This document shows, piece after piece, positions 5,214 through 32,979 of a DNA stretch of 32,979 nt. Under the pieces are notes generated by a model that saw only the letters and a list, made by a program, of their open reading frames with translations, did not search any database and was not told the origin of the DNA. The position numbers and the translations under genes are program-made. The first letter of the stretch is position 1; each line of letters starts with the position of its first letter. Where the stretch lies: the NCBI GenBank assembly GCA_028281405.1, contig JANQKA010000011.1:1-32979 (forward strand), in the 5' to 3' direction. This stretch comes from Hasllibacter sp. Lineage in GTDB: Bacteria > Pseudomonadota > Alphaproteobacteria > Rhodobacterales > Rhodobacteraceae.

Positions 5214-5299
5214 TCCGCCCGCGGGCGCGGACTTCCGGGAGGACGTGAGCGTCACCCTGTCGTCCGGAGCGTTATCCGCCGGCGGGCGCGGACTTCCGG
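5214..5299. repeat. Two-copy direct repeat, 61-bp period
   Basis: A 25-nt word, TCCGCC(C/G)GCGGGCGCGG followed by ACTTCCGG, occurs at 5214-5238 and again at 5275-5299 with one difference. A looser third copy starts at 5307. The 36-nt interval is not repeated. The 61-bp step resembles the spacing in the repeats at 22.3, 25.4 and 32.6 kb. Confidence 0.65.
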
Positions 5300-5706: not shown

Positions 5707-8700
5707 ATGCGCAGCGACAACCCCTTGATGACAAACACCCCGAGGAGGGCGCGCGATTCCCTCGGCTTGACGGCGGGCGCCGCGGCGGTGTTGGGCGCGG
5801 GCGGCGGCGCGCTGGCGCAGGAGGCGGAGGAATTCGTGCCCATCGACACCAGCGAAGTGACCCTCGCCCAGGGCGCGGACGGTGTGCTGACGATCAACAG
5901 GCCCGACGCCGATCCCATCCTTCTGCAGCCCGACTCCTACAGGGTCGTGGACGGCGTTTTTCAAGTTCCCTCCGAATTGGCGAGTTCGCTCGGAATCGAC
6001 GTGGCGCGGGAATCCAACCTCGGAGTCAGGATACTGGAGACGTCGGCCGGCATCGCCTTGGCGGCGGGCGTCGTGGTCGCCGGCGACAGGCCGCAGACTC
6101 CGACGGACGCCCCCCCAACGGTGTCTCCCTTGGCGGACAGGGCAGAGACCATCGGAAACCCGATCGAAACCATCAATCTGTTCGACGTGTTCAGCGACCC
6201 CGAAAACGGCCCGCTGACCTACACGGCCACCGGTTTGGATGACACCGGCCTCTCGCTCCGCGGCGGCAGGATTTCGGGAACCTTGGAGGACACGGTGACC
6301 GAGGACGTGACGGTGGACGTCAGGGCCACCGATTTCAGGGGTGGATACGCCACGGACACCTTCGTCATCGAAGTGAACACCATGCCCGTGGTCGGCGCGG
6401 ACGCCACTTCCCTGGACGGAACGACACGGATCGCGCTCGTCAACGAGGAGATCGCCGCGTTCAACGTCGACGGCAGATACACGGACCCCGACGAGGATGA
6501 ATTGACCATCACCGTTTCCGGTCTTCCGAGTGGCGTGGAGTACGACGAGTCGACGGGCGACATCGCGGGCACGCCCACCCGCGAGGGCGAGCGAAGCGTC
6601 ACGGTCACCATCAGCGACGAGAGCAGGGGAGGCAGTTTCACCGAGACCTTCACCTTCAGGGTGGTGCCGATGGGTCTGGAACTGGAGGGTTCGCCCGACG
6701 CGAACGATGTCCTGACCGGAATGACGGGCAACGACACGCTGCGCGGCTACGGCGGAGACGACACCCTCGAGGGCGGAGCCAGCAACGACTTTCTCCACGG
6801 GGGGCCGGGGGACGACAGCATCTTCGGCCACACCGAGGATGACGCCGGCGACGGGAACGACATCGACACGGCGGTCTACGAAAACGACCGGGACGACTAC
6901 GATGTCGTCAAGGCCATGGTCACCGAGGACGGCGAGACCTCCCTTCTGGTGTATGTGGACGACATCTCCGACGACGGGGAAACCGATGGAACCGACGAGG
7001 GGCGCGACACCCTGCGGGACATCGACGTGCTGCGTTTCGCCGACGGGGAGGTGAGCGTCTCCGACGATTTGGACCTCACGAGCGTCACGGGCGACGAAGA
7101 GGACAACACGCTGACCGGCAACGACGAGGGCCAAACCATCGAAGGATACGCGGGAGACGACACCCTGATCGGCGAAGGCGGCGACGACATCTTCAGGGGA
7201 GGCGAAGGGGACGACGGCATATTCGGCCACGCGGAGGACGAAGACGGCGAAGGCGACGAGGTCGACACGGCGGTCTACGAAGGCGACTTCGCCGACTACA
7301 TGGTCAGGAAGGAGCGGGTGTTCGACGCCGATGGCGACCCCGATTTCATCAGGGTGCATGTGGAAGACATCGCCGACGACGGGAACACCGACGGAACCGA
7401 CGAGGGCAGCGACGCCCTGCGGGACGTGGAGGTGCTGCGGTTCGCCAACATCGACAATTTCAGCGTCGAAAACGATTTGGAATTCGATCTGCTCACCGGA
7501 ACCGACGGGAACGACGATTTCTCCGGCGGGGACAGGGACGAAACGATCCAGGGACTCGGCGGCAACGACATGATCCGGGGCGGCCGCGGCGACGACACGA
7601 TTTATGGCCACGCGGAGGAACCGGAGGAGGGCGAGTCCGACTTCGGCACCGACACCGCGGTCTACGACGGCGAGCGCGACGACTACACCATCACCGAGGA
7701 GCAGGTGGTCATGGACGGGGAACTCGTCACCCGGGTCATCGTCGAGGACACGGGCGAAAACGGCGGCGCCGACGGGGTCGACGAGGGACGGGACACGCTC
7801 ATCGGCATCGAAATACTGCAATTCGCCGATTTCGACGAGTTCCGCGTATCGAGCGAATTGACCCTGTCGAGCATCACGGGATCCGAAGGCAATGACGAGT
7901 TGATCGGCGAATCCGGCGATCAGACGATCATGGGCCTTGGCGGTCCCGACTCCATCGAAGGCCGATCCGGCAACGACACGATCGACGGCGGCGCCGGTGA
8001 CGACACAATCAACGGTGATTCGGGCGGAGACACGATCACCGGAGGCGCGGGCGACGACACCATCGACGGCGGTTCCAGTTCGGATACGGCCGTCTACTCG
8101 GGCAACAGGGCCGAATACATGATCACAGAGGTGATGGTTTGGGTGAATGGAAACCCCGTCACCCGGTTGGCCGTCGAGGACACCGCCCCGGACGGGGGAA
8201 CCGATGGCGTCGACGAGGGACGGGACACCTTGAACAGCGTCGAAACCCTGCAATTCGCCGACGAAACTTCCGTGACCGTTTCCGGACTGAACAATCTCGA
8301 AGTCACCCACTACATCGGCGACGGCGAAGACAACGAAGTGACAGCCGCGGACGGGGACGAGACGCTGGAGGGGGGCCGAGGCGACGACACCCTCGACGGC
8401 GGAGCGGGAGACGACAGCATCGACGGAGGCGAAGGAAACGACACGGCCGTCTATGACGGGAATCGATCCGACTACACACTCGACAAGACGGTCGTGTTCG
8501 AGGATGGCGAGTTCGTCACCCTGGTCACCGTGCGCGACAGTTCCTCGGGCGGCGCCGACGGCGTCAACGAAGGCGAAGACACGTTGCGCAACGTGGAGAT
8601 TCTCCAATTCGCCAACGATCAGGATTTCAGCGTCGCCGACGATTTGAGCATCACAACCATCACCGGCACCGAGAATGGCGACATTCTTACCGGCGAAGAC

Positions 8701-11325
8701 GGCGTCCAGACGATTACGCCGGGCGAGGGAGACGACAGGATCGACGGCGGAGCGGGAGACGACATCGTCATCTACGAAGGGATGCGGGACGAGTATGAAA
8801 TCACGAGGGAACGGGTCGCCGACGGCGCCGAACGCTACATCCGGATCATCGTCGACGACACTGCGGACGACGGAAACACGGATGGAACCGACGAGGGCCG
8901 CGACACGTTGCGCAACATCGCGACACTGCGGTTTGGTGGCTTGTCCGGCACCGACACGAGCGTGTCGAGCCTGAGTTCCATCGCCATCTCCCTCCAACTC
9001 AACATGGGCGGCGACGGCGACGACGAATTGACGTTCATGAGCGGCGACACCGGCGACTGGACCTTCGAAGGTGGAGACGGCGACGACACGATCCGGGCCG
9101 GTTCGGGAGACGACAGGATCGAAGGAGGAGACGGCGACGACAGGGTGGTCTACAACGGAAGCCGGGACGACTACACGATCACGACCGACCGCGTCACCCA
9201 CGACGGGGAAAGGACGACGCAGGTGACCGTGACCGGCCAGGGAATCGGAACCGACACGCTGCTCGGCATCGAGCGGATCGTGTTCGACGAGGGCACCGCC
9301 GACGACGAGGAAGACGACGAGACGGTGTTGGTGGCCGACCTGCCGACCAGCGAGGACAACGTCCTTTCCGGAGATCCGGACGCCGAAGGAGACGACGCCA
9401 ACGACACCATCGACGGGCTCGAGGGCGACGACACGATAACCGGCCACGGCGGGGACGACACGCTGATTGGCGGAGAAGGCGACGACACCCTCGACGGCGG
9501 AGACGGCGACGACACACTGCGCGGCGGGGATGACGACGACATTCTCAATGGCGGCGCGGGCAACGACATACTCGACGGCGGCGCGGGCGACGACATCCTC
9601 GACGGTGGCGAAGACAACACCGCCGACGACGGCGAAGGCGGCGATGGCGGCGATGGCGACGACGAACAGGAAGACAATGACAACGACACCGCGATCTACC
9701 AAGGCGCGGTATCCGAATACACCATCATGGAAGAGCAGACCGTGGTGGACGGCGAAACCATCACCCAATACATCATCGAGGACACCGCGGACGACGGAGA
9801 AACCGACGGAAGCGACGAGGGCCGCGACACATTGCGGAACATCGAGACGGTGAGATTCGGCGGCGCCAACATGATGATCGGCGATCTGGTCGTCACGGCC
9901 ATAGACGGAAGCGACGGGGACGATCCCGATCTGGTCGGCGACGACGGAGAGCAGGTGTTCCAAGGTCGCGGCGGCGACGACACGTTCAGGGGCGGAGGCG
10001 GCGACGACACGATCCACGGCCACACGCGCGGCGACGCCGGATCGAGCGCCGAAACGGACAGGGCGGTATACGAGGGAAGCCGGGACGACTACGCGCTCAC
10101 GACGAACCGCGTGGAGGTGGGCGGGACCACGATCACGCAGGTCACCGTGAGGGACAACAATGCCGATGACGGGCAGGAAGGTGTCGACCTGCTGAGTGGA
10201 ATCGAAGAGATCGTGTTCGAGTCGGGAACGCCCGACGACGACGAAGACGACGTAACCGTCGTCGTGTCCAATTTGCCCACTTCCGACTCCGACACATTGA
10301 CCGGCACCGACGGCGACGACATGATCGCCGCGATGGGCGGAGACGACAGGATAACCGGCGGCGCCGGCGACGACACGATCGACGGAGGCGCGGGGTTCTT
10401 CGACCGCTCCCTCTATGACGGCATGGTGGGGGATTACCTGTTCGACTACGACGCGGACGGAAATCTTCTCGTCATCGACAGCGAAGACGGCGGCGAGGAT
10501 GGAGTCGACGAAGGCCGTGACACGCTGATGAGCATCGAGCGGGTGCAATTCGACGGCCTGTCGCTGCAGGTCACGAACATACGCAACGGCGCCAACGAAA
10601 GCACGCCAAACGATGATGGAAACAGGGAGACCGTTGGCGGAAGTTCGACCGACATATTCCTCACCAGGCTCGGCGCCGACGACACGGTCGCGAACACCCA
10701 ATGGAGGGGAGAAGCCGGCGACGACATATTCCAGATATTTTCTCCGTCGGACCTCCCGGGGGACGATGCCGTGCTCACCATTTTCGACTTCCGCCGCCAA
10801 GAAGGCGAAGGAGACGACGCCGTTGAGGACGAGGACCGCATCGCTCTGGCCGACACCGCCGAACTCAGGGCCATCTCGACATCGCGTAGAACCGAAATGA
10901 TCGACGGTGAAGAAGCCACCACCACCGTCATATCCTTTGGCGGAGAGGAATCCATTATCCTCAGGGGGTACGGGGGCGAATTCACTCGGGGCGTGCACTA
11001 TTATTACGTGAAGGTCGCGGAGCGGGAGCCCGAGTCGGGAAACGCCCTCCGCCCGACCGCGAAACAGGAGATCACCGCCACCGCCATCGAACCGGATTCC
11101 GTGTCCGCGGTCAATCACGGCCCCCGGAGCGCGGAGGAGGAACCCGCGGGGGTATCGGAATTCACCGTTGACGATGACCCGGTCGAATCCGCGCGCGACC
11201 CGATCGACTCCACCACATCGGCGGACACGTCCCCGGACTCCGACCCGGAGGGCGACGCGGCGCCGGAAGGCGTGACGCTCGTCGCCGACCCCGAAACGGA
11301 TTACGTATTCTTCGACTTCGCGTAG
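5707..11325 (+). CDS. Giant acidic RTX (haemolysin-type calcium-binding) surface or secreted protein
   Basis: An 1872-residue, very acidic protein. After [20 protein letters not shown] come a hydrophobic Gly/Ala stretch ending ALAQ and a second one near residue 120 ([12 protein letters not shown]). Two cadherin/dystroglycan-like domains follow (about 135-325; [26 protein letters not shown]). From about residue 335 there are ten modules of 100-150 residues. Each has GGxGxDx(L/I/F) nonapeptides that should form calcium-binding beta-rolls, then a linker of the type DTAVYxGxRxDY ... DGxDEGRDTLxxIExLxFA. The last 300 residues lack nonapeptides and end in DYVFFDFA, a plausible type I secretion signal. 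The ATG at 5707 is chosen for GAGAGA upstream and the promoter ahead of it; an in-frame ATG at residue 8 is an alternative. Likely an adhesin or cell-surface layer protein. No enzymatic domain was seen, and no type I transporter genes are nearby. Confidence 0.88.
6694..10600 (+). repeat. Ten-module repeat region within the RTX gene
   Basis: The coding sequence repeats the TAVY-type linker ten times (starts near 6869, 7266, 7656, 8085, 8442, 8767, 9145, 9688, 10060 and 10399), each copy separated by one to ten calcium-binding nonapeptides. Runs of GGCGACGACAC-like sequence recur throughout. Linkers are clearly homologous but diverged, so this is an old expansion rather than a recent slippage array. 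The nonapeptide block in module 7 (about 9409-9611) is the longest and most regular. Confidence 0.8.
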
Positions 11326-19028: not shown

Positions 19029-19448
19029 TTGGACGCCGGACAATCGGGGGCGGAACGCCGACCGGCGGGAGTCGGAATGGCGGCGGGTCCGCTTTGTTCC
19101 AGCGTCCGCTCCGCCGGGCGGACGAATTTGGATTCGCCGCGGCAAGGGGCGGATTCCCATGCCGGGCGGGACGGGGCGTCCGGAGGCCCGAGCTTTCACT
19201 GATCCAGTGGTGGGAGTGTTCGATCCGCGCCGTCCCTGAACCATGAACCATCGAACGCGCGGGCGGGGAGATGGCCCCGGATCGGGCGGAGGGGTCCGAT
19301 TCCCTCGTCCGGTGTCGATGCGCGGCCCGAACGCCGCGAAGCCCCCGCGAGCCAACCGCGCCGGAGATTTCGAGGCCGCGCCCCCCGCACGGACGCGGTC
19401 GCACGTCAAATGTTCCTCCCGAAGCAGTTCAAGGCGGGCGCCGGATCC

Positions 19449-20226
19449 GCGAATCACCGATTCGGTTCGGATGAGGCGGGTGGCCCGGCGCACCCCGAAT
19501 CGCGCCAGGATCGTCGATTCGTTCCGCGAATCACCCGCCCGCCTACCAAAGCCGAGCGTGGGGGGCGTGAATCCGCCCGGTATCGCGGTGGAAGCGAATC
19601 CGTGCCCCTGGCACGGCGATCACGGGTCCGCGGAATCACCGGTTCGCTTCCGATGGGTGGAGAGGCCGGAACGCCGATTCGACCCTCCGAATCACCCCGC
19701 GCGTCACCGACACGGAGCGGAGAGACCCGCCACCCCGATCGGCCGTGCGACGGGAGCCTTCACGAGCGGCACCGCTTGGCGATCGAAGAGGACACAAATG
19801 ACCGATTCGCTCCCATCGCGGCGCGCGCGCGCCCGGCATCGTGGTGGAATCGACGATTCGCTCCACCGAATCGCCCGCACGACACAAAACGGCGCGGGGA
19901 GATCCGCGCCCCCCGTTGGCCGTGCGGCTGAGCCTTCCCGCTCGGCCCGGCACGGCGTTCACGGAGAGAGCGAATCACCAATCGCACCCGACGCGGCGGG
20001 TGACTCCGGTCCCCGCCCCCCGAACCGCGCCGGACCCATCGATTCGTTTCGCCGAATCACCGGCACCGAGCGGGTCGGCGCGGAAAACACCCGCGGCCTT
20101 GGCCAACGGATTGGCCGCGGGAGCGACTCCCGGGCCATCCCGCATCGCGATCGCGGGGTCGCGAAAAACACGGGCGCCAAGCTCGAAATCCGGCCGGGGG
20201 CTCCGATTCGCCCGCCGAATCACTCC
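19449..20226. repeat. Diverged palindromic repeat array (GATTCG...CGAATCACC)
   Basis: The core GATTCG-N6/7-GAATCACC, a short hairpin, occurs in the same orientation starting at 19516, 19676, 19855, 20041 and 20205, giving steps of 160, 179, 186 and 164 bp. Further single arms lie at 19451, 19633 and 19972. Flanks partly repeat too: GGCCGTGCG, then GAGCCTTC or GGAGCCTTC, occurs after two of the cores (19741 and 19919). This looks like an old, eroded tandem array of roughly 160-190-bp units built around a REP-like hairpin. Similar single words occur at 948 and 26955-26968. Confidence 0.6.
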
Positions 20227-20592
20227 CGTCCGCCGGAATCGGCGCGGAGACCGTCCCATCCGAGGTCATCCCATCGACGACACCGCTCCCGCGGTCACGG
20301 GCGCGGAGGACCGTGGAATCGCCGGCCAGCTCGGATGCGGCCCAGGGTCTGCGCGGGTCGCGAATCAGCCGGGGGAGGCGGATTGATCCCCCCGATCATC
20401 GGCGCAACGCCAAGACGGCTCCGCCTCAGCGCCCTTAATGCCCGATTATTGACCGCTTCCATGGGACCGCCGCGCGGCCACGGGTCAACGCCCGCCAGCG
20501 GAGCGTCACCCGCCTCGAAATGAGGCCAATGACCACGCCGCGGCCTTCCGGCGCCCTTCGAGCCACCTCGATCCCACATGATATGAAGCAAC

Positions 20593-20609: not shown

Positions 20610-20676
20610 AATTAAGAATTTGCCTCAAGTGCCGCTTGGCGGGAAACAGGCGTTCGAATCACTCATGGACGCCACG

Positions 20677-21777
20677 ATGACGAATCCCCTCCAATCCATC
20701 CTGTCCGAACGCGACTGGCTACTGACCGACGGCGCCACCGGAACCAACCTGTTCAACATGGGCCTCTCTTCCGGCGAGGCTCCCGAATTCTGGAACACGG
20801 ACCGTCCCGCCGAAATCCGCCGCCTTCACGCCGCGGCGGTCGAGGCGGGGTCCGATCTTTTCCTCACCAACAGTTTCGGCGCCAACGCCAGCCGCCTGAA
20901 GCTCCACGGCGCCGCGCATCGCGCCCACGAGTTGTCGAAGGCCGCTGCGGAACTGGGACGGGATGTCGCCGACGCCGCGGGCCGGGACGTGATCGTCGCC
21001 GGGTCGATGGGCCCCACGGGAGAGATCATGGCCCCCGTGGGAAGCCTGACCCACGAAGCCGCCGTGGAGATGTTCCACGAACAGGCAGCCGGCCTGAAGG
21101 ATGGTGGCGCCGACGTGATCTGGGTCGAAACGATCTCGTCACCGGAGGAATTCCTGGCGGCGGCGGAAGCCTGCGCTCTCGCCGGCATCGCGTGGTGCGG
21201 CACGATGAGTTTCGACACTGCCGGGCGCACCATGATGGGGGTGACATCCAACTCCCTCGCCGCCCTCGTGGAAAAAATCTCTCCCGGGCCGACCGCCTTC
21301 GGCGCCAATTGCGGCGTCGGCGCGTCGGACCTCGTCCGCACCGTTCTCGGCTTTTCGGGCGCGGGGCTTCCGATCATCGCCAAAGGCAACGCCGGTATCC
21401 CGAAATACTCGAACGGTTGCATCCACTACGACGGCACCCCCGACCTTATGGCCGACTACGCGGCCCTCGTCCGGGACGCGGGAGCGACCATCATCGGCGG
21501 TTGCTGCGGAACAACCCCGGCCCACATCGGAAAGATGCGCGAAGCGCTAGAGACGCGGCCCCGCGGCCCCCGTCCGTCTCCGGAGGAAATCGAGGCGAGA
21601 CTCGGACGTTTTTCGTCCGCGTCGGACGGAACCCGCCCCGGCGCGGCGCCGAAACGGGAACGCCGCGGCCGCCGGCGCGCCGCCGTCCAACCACCCCGCG
21701 CTCCCGGTCCGCTCCCGGAGCGAAGCCGCGCGCCGGAGCGAGAAACCGGAGCGGAACTGGAACCGCATTGCTCATGA
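20677..21777 (+). CDS. Homocysteine S-methyltransferase (Bmt type, split methionine synthase component)
   Basis: A 366-residue zinc-dependent methyltransferase of the S-methyl_trans family, moving a methyl group to homocysteine to form methionine. LLTDGATGTNLFNMG opens the TIM barrel. The zinc ligands are Cys212 (GANCGVG) and the pair Cys276-Cys277 (GGCCGTTP). It has no cobalamin or pterin domain, so it needs a partner; the corrinoid protein at 23894 is the obvious candidate. The alphaproteobacterial form is often annotated betaine-homocysteine methyltransferase. The ATG at 20677 is chosen by fit to the family; ATGs at 20605 and 20665 are alternatives. After the usual basic end (RRGRRR) the frame runs on for about 34 Pro/Arg-rich residues, suggesting loss of the original stop codon. 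Confidence 0.88.
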   Translation: MTNPLQSILSERDWLLTDGATGTNLFNMGLSSGEAPEFWNTDRPAEIRRLHAAAVEAGSDLFLTNSFGANASRLKLHGAAHRAHELSKAAAELGRDVADAAGRDVIVAGSMGPTGEIMAPVGSLTHEAAVEMFHEQAAGLKDGGADVIWVETISSPEEFLAAAEACALAGIAWCGTMSFDTAGRTMMGVTSNSLAALVEKISPGPTAFGANCGVGASDLVRTVLGFSGAGLPIIAKGNAGIPKYSNGCIHYDGTPDLMADYAALVRDAGATIIGGCCGTTPAHIGKMREALETRPRGPRPSPEEIEARLGRFSSASDGTRPGAAPKRERRGRRRAAVQPPRAPGPLPERSRAPERETGAELEPHCS

Positions 21778-22545
21778 CACCCCGACCGATGGTGGATTCC
21801 CCTCCCCGTTGACCTTGCCCGCGCGGGCGAATCATCCCGGCGTCGCGGATGTTCGCCACACCGGCGCACCCGGACGAACCGCGGCCCGCGAGGGCGCGCC
21901 CGGTTTCACTCGCCCTGCGGGTGGGTCGTGTCCCTCCCCTCCCGCCGGGCCGCATCGCGCCCTCCTGCCGTGGTCGGCGGCGCGCGCCCGTCCCAATCGC
22001 GCGGAAATATCTCCGACCGCGCGCTCCGGCGCCGGGGGCAACGGGAGAATCGGCGGATTTGGGGATCGCTCAAGACGGCGCCGGGAGGCGCCGCCGCGGC
22101 CTTCCAGGGCACACGCCCGGGCCGTCGCCCCCTCGTTCCGCTCCCCGGGGACATCCCCGCCCCCGTGGTGGACATTCACATGTGCGGTTCCCCGCCCAGG
22201 TCAGGGGCCGGCAGAGCCTCCCGGCGCCGTCTCGAACAATCCCAGTGGGTTTCGCCGCCGCATGCCCGGGTCCAACCTTGCCCAAACACGCGCGACTTGG
22301 TGGGTGCCATGGTCGGCAATCGCGTGGATAACTTCACCCTTGCCCAAACCCGGGCGCGGATTGGTGGGGGATGCCGCTGAACGATGTCGCGGCCCTGTTC
22401 CTTGTCCAAACACGCGCGCGCGGATTGGTGGTTTCGCGCCCTCGCGGATGTTCTTCGGATTCACGCGCTTGTCCAAACACGCGCGCGCGGATTGGTGGAC
22501 CCGCGGCCAGTCCCGTCCCAGGCGCCAAGGAGAGGGCGGAGCCCT
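21778..22545. other. Spacer with CRISPR-like repeats, no gene seen
   Basis: Convergent spacer between the homocysteine methyltransferase and the radical SAM gene. The left 500 bp show no gene or clear structure. The right part carries four repeats, described separately. Confidence 0.45.
22277..22498. repeat. Four hairpin repeats with unique intervals (CRISPR-like geometry)
   Basis: The repeat starts CTTGTCCAAACACGCGCG and ends CGGATTGGTGG. Copies lie at 22277-22303 (27 nt, degenerate), 22339-22367 (29 nt, degenerate), 22401-22431 and 22468-22498 (both 31 nt and identical). The three intervals are 35, 33 and 36 nt and unrelated to each other. Each repeat is partly palindromic (CCAA ... TTGG around a CGCG core). 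Degeneration at one end resembles the leader-distal end of a CRISPR array. There are no cas genes in the window and only four copies, so it may equally be a dispersed palindromic element duplicated with flanks. Confidence 0.6.
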
Positions 22546-23634
22546 TCAGAACAGGCTCTGTTGGTCGCCCGCTTCCACGGGAACGCGGAAGAGATCGGTT
22601 CTCAAGCGGGGGAAATCGGCTCTGAAGCCGCAGCGCTTCAGAGCCAACCGGAACCGCATGGCGATGAGTTCCGCGTACTTGCCTTCGCCCCTCCCGCGCT
22701 TGAACCACTCGGAATCGTATTCCTTGCCGCCATGCACCTCCCTGACCCGCGCCATGACCCTCTCGGCGCGGTCGGGACAATGTTCCCTCAAAAAATTCCG
22801 GAACAGCGGCGCCACCTCGTATGGCAGGCGCAACATCACCCACGACCCGCCCGACGCGCCGGCGTCCCTGGCCGAGGAGAGGATCGCCTCCACCTCGCTG
22901 TCGTTCAGCCCCGGAATGATCGGAGCGACCATCACGCGCACCTGGACGCCCGCCCCGGCCAGCTTTTCGATGATCCTCAATCGCCGGGCGGGGAGGGGCA
23001 CGCGCGGCTCCATGGCCCGGCTGAGCGCGGGATCGAGCGTGGTGACGCTGACACCCACCCGGGTCAGGCCACGCGCGGCCAGATCGGAAAGAATGTCGAT
23101 GTCGCGCTCTATCAGCGTCCCCTTGGTGACGATCCCCACCGGATGCCGGAAGGACAGAAGCACCTCCAGGATTCCGCGCATGATCCGATGCTCGCGCTCC
23201 ACGGGTTGGTACGGATCGGTGTTGCTGCCCAGCGCGATGGTGCTCGGTTCGTAGCCTTTTCTGCGGAGCTCCTTCGCGAGAAGTTCCGGCGCGGCGGGAC
23301 GGGCCACCAGACGGGTCTCGAAGTCCAAGCCCGCCGACAATCCGAGATAACCATGCGAGGGGCGGGCGTAACAGTAGACACATCCGTGTTCGCAGCCCCG
23401 GTAGGGGTTGACCGACTGATCGAAGCTGATGTCCGGCGACTGGTTGCGGGTGATCACCTTCTTCGGAGTCTCCAACCGCACCTCGGTCTTGAGCGGCGGC
23501 AGGTCGTCCTCGGGATCCCGGTCCCAGCCGTCGTCGACGACCTCCCTGACGTAGGGGTCGAACCTGTGCGCCGGGTTCGTCGACGCCCCCCGGCCCCGAC
23601 GCCGGCCGGGCGCGATTTCGGCTCTCTCGAACAT
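22546..23634 (-). CDS. PA0069-family radical SAM protein
   Basis: A 362-residue radical SAM enzyme whose reaction is unknown. NPYRGCEHGCVYCYARP supplies Cys81, Cys85 and Cys88 for the 4Fe-4S cluster. The neighbouring conserved segments (SNTDPYQPVE, TKGTLIERDIDIL, VGVSVTTLD, APIIPGLND) are typical of the COG1533/SplB-like group. A basic N-terminus (RRRGRG) precedes the barrel, as usual in this family. The ATG at 23632-23634 is preferred; a GTG at 23641-23643 is in frame three codons upstream. A LexA-like box lies immediately upstream, suggesting DNA-damage control. Damage repair is only a suggestion, from the distant similarity to spore photoproduct lyase. Confidence 0.9.
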   Translation of the reverse strand: MFERAEIAPGRRRGRGASTNPAHRFDPYVREVVDDGWDRDPEDDLPPLKTEVRLETPKKVITRNQSPDISFDQSVNPYRGCEHGCVYCYARPSHGYLGLSAGLDFETRLVARPAAPELLAKELRRKGYEPSTIALGSNTDPYQPVEREHRIMRGILEVLLSFRHPVGIVTKGTLIERDIDILSDLAARGLTRVGVSVTTLDPALSRAMEPRVPLPARRLRIIEKLAGAGVQVRVMVAPIIPGLNDSEVEAILSSARDAGASGGSWVMLRLPYEVAPLFRNFLREHCPDRAERVMARVREVHGGKEYDSEWFKRGRGEGKYAELIAMRFRLALKRCGFRADFPRLRTDLFRVPVEAGDQQSLF

Positions 23635-23646
23635 TGTGGACACATA

Positions 23647-25360: not shown

Positions 25361-25453
25361 GACCGATTCCCGACGCGCGGAGGGCATGAACGCATGGGGC
25401 CGTCTGTGAGCGGTTGGCTTGGACCGGATCCCGACGCCGGGAGGGCGTGAGGA
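25361..25453. repeat. Two-copy repeat, 61-bp period
   Basis: In the convergent gap between DUF1638 and sufE, a 32-nt element beginning GACCG and containing TCCCGACG and GAGGGC occurs at 25361-25392 and again at 25422-25453, with about three quarters identity. The 29-nt interval is not repeated. Same step size as the pair at 5214 and 5275. Confidence 0.5.
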
Positions 25454-27350: not shown

Positions 27351-27415
27351 CTTTACATCGACGGAAGATCGCTGCATGTTCTAAGGACATGCGGCGATCT
27401 TCCGTCGATGTAAAG
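27351..27415. repeat. Large near-perfect hairpin, 29-bp arms
   Basis: Left arm 27351-27379 (starts CTTTACATCGACGGAAGATC) and right arm 27387-27415 are inverted copies with one mismatch, which is a G-U pair in RNA, around a 7-nt loop TCTAAGG. The arms are AT-richer than the surroundings. There is no T-run. A palindromic mobile element, the hairpin core of a small RNA or a protein-binding cruciform are all possible. Confidence 0.85.
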
Positions 27416-32313: not shown

Positions 32314-32561
32314 GTCGTCCCCCGATTTGTCGGGGTGGGGATTAGCCGCCGCGATGAGTGGATGAAAGGCCGAAGCGACCGGGGACGGGCACCGTCCAGA
32401 GCCAAATTTCCTCCCCGGGCGCCCCATCGGCCTCCGCGGATTGGATTTTCCGGCCGGCCAGCCAGTCTCCCGGAGGGGTTTCAATCCGGCGCGGTGTTCA
32501 AGGGAGCGCCGAGCGCCGCCACCCTGCCCTGGTTCCGGACGGCGATTCCGCCCCTCACGGC
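32314..32561. other. Upstream region of purM, no gene seen
   Basis: About 250 bp between purM and the tandem array. It must hold the purM promoter. TTGTCG and a GGGGTGGGGATTAG stretch lie just upstream of the gene, but no convincing promoter or purine-responsive element could be picked out. Confidence 0.4.
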
Positions 32562-32979
32562 GGCCGGGTGAATTCGGGCACCGCCGCCGTGACCCGGTTC
32601 CGGGCGGTGATCCCGCCCCGCACGGAGGCCAGGTGAAATCGGGACGCCGCCGCAGTGGCCCGGTTCCGGGCGGTGATCCCGCCCCGTCGCGGCCTCAATG
32701 GAAACGTGGCGTCCAGTTCCGCGTGCTGCTCAGTTGGAATCCCGCCCCGCGCGGCGGCCAGATGAATTCGGGCACCGCCGCCGTGGCCCGGTTCCGGGCG
32801 GTGAACCCGCCCCGTCGCGTCCTCAATGGAAACGTGGCGTCCTGTTCCGCGGGCTGCTCAGTTGGAATCCCGCCCCGCGCGGCGGCCAGGTGAATTCGGG
32901 CACCGCCGCAGTGGCCCGGTTCCGGGCGGTGATCCCGCCCCGTCGCGGCCTCAATGGAAACGTGGCGTCCAGTTCCGCG
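32562..32979. repeat. Composite tandem array, 63-65-bp half units, runs off right edge
   Basis: A core (G/A)ATCCCGCCCCG followed by a GC-rich tail and GGCC recurs seven times; GGCC, or GTCC in one copy, falls at 32562, 32627, 32691, 32756, 32819, 32884 and 32947. The roughly 40-nt intervals are of only two kinds. Type A contains GTGAATTCGGGC and CCCGGTTCCGGGCGG. Type B contains TCAATGGAAACGTGGCGTCC and GCTCAGTTGGAA. The order is A-A-B-A-B-A-B. The A-B composite is therefore a 128-bp tandem repeat. In the CGCGCGGCGG version the core can fold (CCGCC/GGCGG). The left edge near 32530 shows a degenerate further core. No cas genes are present. Confidence 0.85.

Follow-up and report, generated by a model that had tools for sequence, protein, structure and literature searches.

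The window, by which we mean the whole 32,979-nucleotide stretch analyzed here, carries a four-copy repeat array at positions 22277 to 22498 that is real and unique in its genome, and the same genome contains dozens of small CRISPR-shaped intergenic units, most of them with a step of exactly 61 bp. The array belongs to this lag-61 class probably rather than certainly, because its own steps of 62, 62, and 67 bp lie off the 61-bp ruler. The explanation that we prefer, with a little short of even confidence, is that the array is a product of ectopic spacer integration by type I-E Cas1-Cas2, one of many such arrays to have arisen in this genome. Of more interest than the single array in the window is the class as a whole, with its exact 61-bp ruler.

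The array consists of four direct repeats, all on the plus strand, of 27, 29, 31, and 31 nt (R1 to R4; Table 1), with start-to-start steps of 62, 62, and 67 bp (64, 64, and 67 bp from right end to right end). Between them lie three intervals (I1 to I3) of 35, 33, and 36 nt. R3 and R4 are identical across exactly 31 nt, and the sequences on both sides diverge at once, while R1 and R2 differ from them chiefly in the length of a CG run and in a few substitutions. The chance expectation for the 26-nt repeat core, estimated from shuffled windows, was 0. The intervals showed no significant similarity to one another or to the flanks compared with shuffled sequence, and a relation among them or to the flanks was therefore rejected. 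The array thus has the near-identical, sharp-ended direct repeats of 23 to 50 nt that are looked for in CRISPR arrays (R3 and R4 being identical and R1 and R2 diverged), together with unique intervals of near-constant length. The original prediction, made from the sequence alone, had given these coordinates, the 62/62/67 spacing, and the interval sizes and had described two identical 31-nt repeats and intervals unrelated in sequence, all of which was borne out by re-measurement. Its description of the other two copies as progressively degenerate holds insofar as R1 and R2 are mutated, but the copies of 27, 29, and 31 nt differ by the CG run and are not simply degenerate.

The array lies in a gap of ~770 bp that separates two convergent genes, as called with a simple codon model. 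A search of the whole 4.9-Mb, 872-contig MAG recovered the repeat at this single site, without the single scattered copies that had been named beforehand as evidence against a CRISPR-like array, and a repeat dispersed through the genome was therefore rejected. The repeat was also absent from 393 other family genomes. A dispersed element of ~190 bp, bounded by 35-bp terminal inverted repeats (86% complementary), lies immediately to the left of the array at 22057 to 22254, and ~12 more copies or fragments of it occur genome-wide at 70 to 83% identity (on C604, C249, C573, C488, C684, C441, C522, and others).

Table 1. Coordinates of the repeat array, its neighboring genes, and two doublets in the window
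Feature	Position	Strand	Remarks
CRISPR-sized doublet	5214..5299	+	~25-nt repeat, 24/25 identical, exactly 61 bp apart, intergenic
Homocysteine S-methyltransferase-like gene	20629..21777	+	PF02574; convergent neighbor, left of array
Repeat R1	22277..22303	+	27 nt, most diverged copy
Interval I1	22304..22338		35 nt, no match elsewhere
Repeat R2	22339..22367	+	29 nt
Interval I2	22368..22400		33 nt; 22/33 nt common to one IMG/VR contig
Repeat R3	22401..22431	+	31 nt, identical to R4
Interval I3	22432..22467		36 nt; 24/26 nt common to two homologous IMG/VR contigs
Repeat R4	22468..22498	+	31 nt; end 47 bp from stop-codon end of radical SAM gene
Radical SAM gene	22546..23643	-	PF04055; convergent neighbor, right of array
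Weaker doublet	25361..25450	+	29-nt repeat, 24/29 identical, exactly 61 bp, intergenic

A site between convergent genes, 47 bp beyond the radical SAM gene end, would suit a repeated transcription-termination or regulatory site, but we consider this explanation very unlikely, as no T-tract follows any repeat copy, the lone terminator-like match sits in I3 and is near the shuffle expectation, no promoter was found near the array, and folding of the whole array was no better than that of shuffled sequence (z 0.51). The repeats had been described as hairpins, and they are indeed partly palindromic, but each copy folds only weakly (-2.4 to -7.8 kcal/mol) and no compensatory change or covariation was found among the copies. 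A structured RNA or terminator is thus unsupported by the fold, T-tract, and covariation checks, and no Rfam family matched in the window. No AT-rich leader of the kind that accompanies CRISPR arrays lies beside the array, where the GC content is 0.62 to 0.74 on both sides, and we saw no sign of array expression or of a defense role.

We surveyed repeat lags in 0.82 Mb (17% of the fragmented MAG), leaving the canonical I-E array out of the counts. At 18 further non-coding places (16 loci), a short repeat recurs exactly 61 bp away with an unrelated interval and flanks, compared with a mean of 0.48 places and a maximum of 3 at the other lags from 40 to 100 (Poisson P about 2e-22 for lag 61). Repeat lengths at this lag cluster at 25 to 30, with a mode of 28 to 29, and no long tandem repeats were seen at 61; a looser cut-off gave 21 non-coding and 0 coding places. 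The number of lag-61 places in 1.06 Mb from 114 related genomes was 0. Applied to canonical I-E arrays, the same script returned a period of 61 and repeats of 28 to 30 in C748 and in three of four related plasmid stretches, all three from Rhodobacterales, and in 200 kb of I-E-bearing plasmids, used as an I-E-bearing control, the lag-61 matches listed carry the canonical repeat. An array detector requiring at least three short repeats at steps of 50 to 80 found ~40 arrays per Mb here; the rate was 2.5 per Mb in relatives (400 kb scanned), and Markov-shuffled sequence yielded none.

Each lag-61 place has its own repeat sequence, and the low all-against-all similarity, save between two units of the same array, led us to reject copies of one dispersed element. 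Tandem duplication was rejected because the interval does not recur beyond the second copy. Helical phasing accounts poorly for the ruler, as 61 bp corresponds to ~5.8 turns, which is not a whole number. The cleanest single events are on C760 (28/28 identical) and C70 (29/29 identical), and arrays with unrelated intervals occur on C600, C603, and C770 (all with period 61) and on C25 (61 to 66). The C25 array mixes steps of 61, 62, 65, and 66, so the off-ruler array in the window is not unique in this respect, and drift of this sort does take place inside a single array. The window array has further features in common with the class, namely, sharp boundaries, a GC-rich core, an intergenic site, and unrelated inserts; its polarity, with two identical copies at one end, was also counted as class-like. 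Doublet repeats resemble the I-E repeats of the genome (mean score of 11.5, versus 6.8 for random intergenic 29-mers), and 11 of 19 do so at about P 0.02 or better against GC-matched sequence, whereas the likeness of the window repeat to the I-E repeat is weak (P of 0.06 for R3 and 0.13 for R2).

The original prediction remarked that no cas gene is nearby, which is true of this contig but not of the genome, since C748 carries a complete type I-E operon, including Cas1e and Cas2e, with a long array of 46 perfect repeats at period 61, and C258 carries a type I-G operon with a three-copy I-E-like array close by. There are no cas genes in the window, and the I-E repeats of C748 and C258 bear no relation to the repeat of the window array; no repeat of the I-G system was seen on its contig, which is cut. 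C748 has a tetranucleotide profile among the most deviant of the contigs sampled, and its Cas1e is 83 to 86% identical to plasmid-borne Cas1e of Paracoccus, Haematobacter, Frigidibacter, and Thioclava; because of this composition and this likeness to plasmid-borne proteins, C748 may have arrived recently or have been binned in error. When the I-E spacers were queried with repeats attached against the phage set, the matches were indistinguishable from repeat matches.

Several CRISPR systems are tolerated by this genome, and the unique intervals, the sharp repeat boundaries, and the degenerate copies at one end would all be expected if the array were a genuine CRISPR remnant that was transferred without cas genes or outlived their loss. 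We nevertheless find such a remnant unlikely. The repeat matches neither of the resident I-E arrays and none of the 393 other family genomes, no leader is present, no mobile genetic element matches a full interval, and the lengths vary (27 to 31 for repeats and 33 to 36 for intervals). In addition, there are too many differing arrays in the genome for each to represent a separate lost system. The orphan or decaying array first proposed is therefore less likely, because the genome has many more arrays of the same shape with different repeats. The better of the initial guesses was a repeat system of another kind in which the spacing is held constant. The window array is better read as a probable member of the lag-61 class than as an orphan CRISPR array.

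Comparison of the intervals with mobile elements, which had also been proposed, yielded no full-length match of I1, I2, or I3 in phage or plasmid sequences or in IMG/VR, nor was there one in the part of the genome sampled, and no interval had a convincing protospacer. Two interval 20-mers do match IMG/VR, and extension of these matches ends at 22 of 33 nt for I2 and at 24 of 26 nt for I3, with 9 nt at one end of I3 unmatched in the IMG/VR contigs; two control 20-mers, one of which serves as a random control, had no match there. Because the I2 and I3 matches are partial and the end of I3 is unmatched, they are probably due to chance. Derivation of the intervals from the genome itself was rejected, as nothing above chance appeared in the 0.83 Mb sampled. 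An empty target site with a single repeat copy, whether paralogous or orthologous, was not found in the DNA searched.

One Cas1-Cas2 integration yields a 28-bp direct repeat on either side of 33 bp of unrelated DNA. Under the integration explanation, type I-E Cas1-Cas2 would have taken a GC-rich, partly palindromic intergenic site for a CRISPR repeat, and each foreign insert of ~33 bp would have duplicated a ~28-bp target to give a target-insert-target arrangement. Reuse of the same site would yield four copies and three inserts, and later drift would account for the changes in CG run length and the mutations in R1 and R2. Off-target integration has been described in laboratory E. coli overexpressing Cas1-Cas2 (Nivala et al. 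2018, Nat Microbiol 3:310, as reported in PMC11788318 and PMC9456107). As far as those reports describe them, such neo-CRISPR loci resemble the units found here in being new repeat-spacer-repeat units located between genes, outside CRISPR loci, with a separate repeat sequence for each; the genome-wide lag-61 class has the I-E unit size. The neo-CRISPR loci differ in that they arose under overexpression, whereas here the units would be natural and number 18 in ~17% of the genome, and in that the window array departs from the 61-bp ruler. From the unit of a 28-bp repeat and a 33-bp insert, the lack of a tandem interval, and the overexpression precedent, we infer that Cas1-Cas2 made the lag-61 units and that many units in this genome are natural off-target integrations. 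The type I-E Cas1 and Cas2 that such events call for in the same cell are encoded on C748, a composition outlier.

The neo-CRISPR unit, that is, a target duplication of 28 to 29 bp with an insert of 32 to 33 bp and a period of 61, is found at 18 other places and not in the window array, where 31-nt repeats, inserts of 33 to 36 nt, and steps of 62, 62, and 67 all speak against an I-E unit. Further points against integration are that no convincing protospacer, empty site, AT-rich leader, or promoter was found in the DNA searched, that the likeness of the window repeat to the I-E repeat is weak, that the contig with the I-E system may be newly acquired or misassigned, and that some 64- to 67-bp arrays are partly or wholly tandem, which slippage fits better. 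Type I-E arrays proper, such as those of C748 and of Haematobacter, Frigidibacter, and Paracoccus plasmids, share with the class direct repeats of 28 to 30 nt, unique intervals of 32 to 33 nt, and a period of 61. The class differs from them in having no cas genes or leader, its own repeat at each site, and usually 2 to 4 copies, and the window array differs in its 62/62/67 steps.

The 62/62/67 steps and the varying CG run would also fit slippage, and the array could instead be a local interspersed hairpin repeat, either STAR- or BIME-like or a decayed tandem of 62 to 67 bp, that does not derive from CRISPR. A GC-rich palindromic core of ~30 nt would then owe its continued likeness to slippage, conversion, or weak selection, and the intervals would have diverged. 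We consider this somewhat less likely than integration. Several kinds of intergenic repeats abound in this genome, among them 65- to 67-bp arrays with partly or fully conserved intervals (window 32516 to 32979, C441, C488, and C603:15594). The 31-nt identity of R3 and R4, however, is set amid wholly unrelated DNA, which tandem-repeat decay does not yield; the repeat occurs at a single site with all copies direct, and neither a conserved fold nor covariation was seen. The array resembles REP/BIME elements as a set of short GC-rich palindromes in an intergenic array, but REP units lie scattered in alternating orientation, and here four copies occupy one site, all on the plus strand. STAR elements are GC-rich direct repeats between genes, without cas, that have been mistaken for CRISPR and are thus known false CRISPRs (PMC5294841). 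The lag-61 class likewise comprises GC-rich intergenic direct repeats without cas genes, but STAR has one signature genome-wide, whereas in this genome the repeat differs from array to array and 18 places keep the lag exactly; on reading, the S. aureus STAR signature T[GAT]TGTTG[GT]GGCCC[CA] is absent from R1 to R4.

Non-coding lags of 63 to 67 show a weaker excess of 31- to 40-nt repeats, with 8 short places (score of at least 18) versus ~2.4 expected, and some 63- to 67-bp repeats in the genome are fully tandem. This group may be a second class, and because it includes true tandem repeats, slippage stays a serious rival for the window array.

Taken more broadly, ectopic Cas1-Cas2 integration would mean that the genome records large-scale natural ectopic CRISPR adaptation, with about a hundred new units made at GC-rich intergenic sites (an extrapolation from 18 in 0.82 Mb to the genome) and new CRISPR repeats born in nature, some of the units having grown into multispacer arrays (C603, C600, and the window array). 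We hold this broader reading with somewhat less than even confidence. Off-target integration upon Cas1-Cas2 overexpression is already known; here, if the reading is true, it would be both natural and numerous. A natural genome with many I-E-sized footprints would make the origin of new CRISPR arrays and repeats a testable question, in terms of which sites are used, whether the inserts are foreign, whether the units are processed into crRNAs, and whether some grow into real arrays. Units not derived from CRISPR would instead generate false CRISPR calls, and their strikingly exact 61-bp ruler would need another cause.

Other repeats were observed in the same DNA. At G000:C603:5560-6470, a cas-less array of ~13 copies with a period of 60 to 61 has two interval types that alternate A-B-A-B before a run of unique ones, and it resembles an I-E array that has diverged and duplicated internally. 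Long intergenic stretches of degenerate palindromes of the form CGATTCG...CGAATCACC occur in the window at 19400 to 20400 and at G000:C600:13560-14440, and on C600 a regular 61-bp array has the palindrome ending GCGAATCACCC as its tail. The tandem repeat at 32516 to 32979 of the window has periods of 65 to 66 and 128 bp with CCGGTTCCGGGCGG hairpins and runs off the contig end, where it probably broke the assembly. A large RTX (calcium-binding nonapeptide) repeat protein with an Ig-like domain is encoded at 5767 to 11322 by DNA with a 27-bp periodicity, and an intergenic, near-perfect 32-bp inverted repeat with a 1-nt center (94% complementary) lies at 27351 to 27415.
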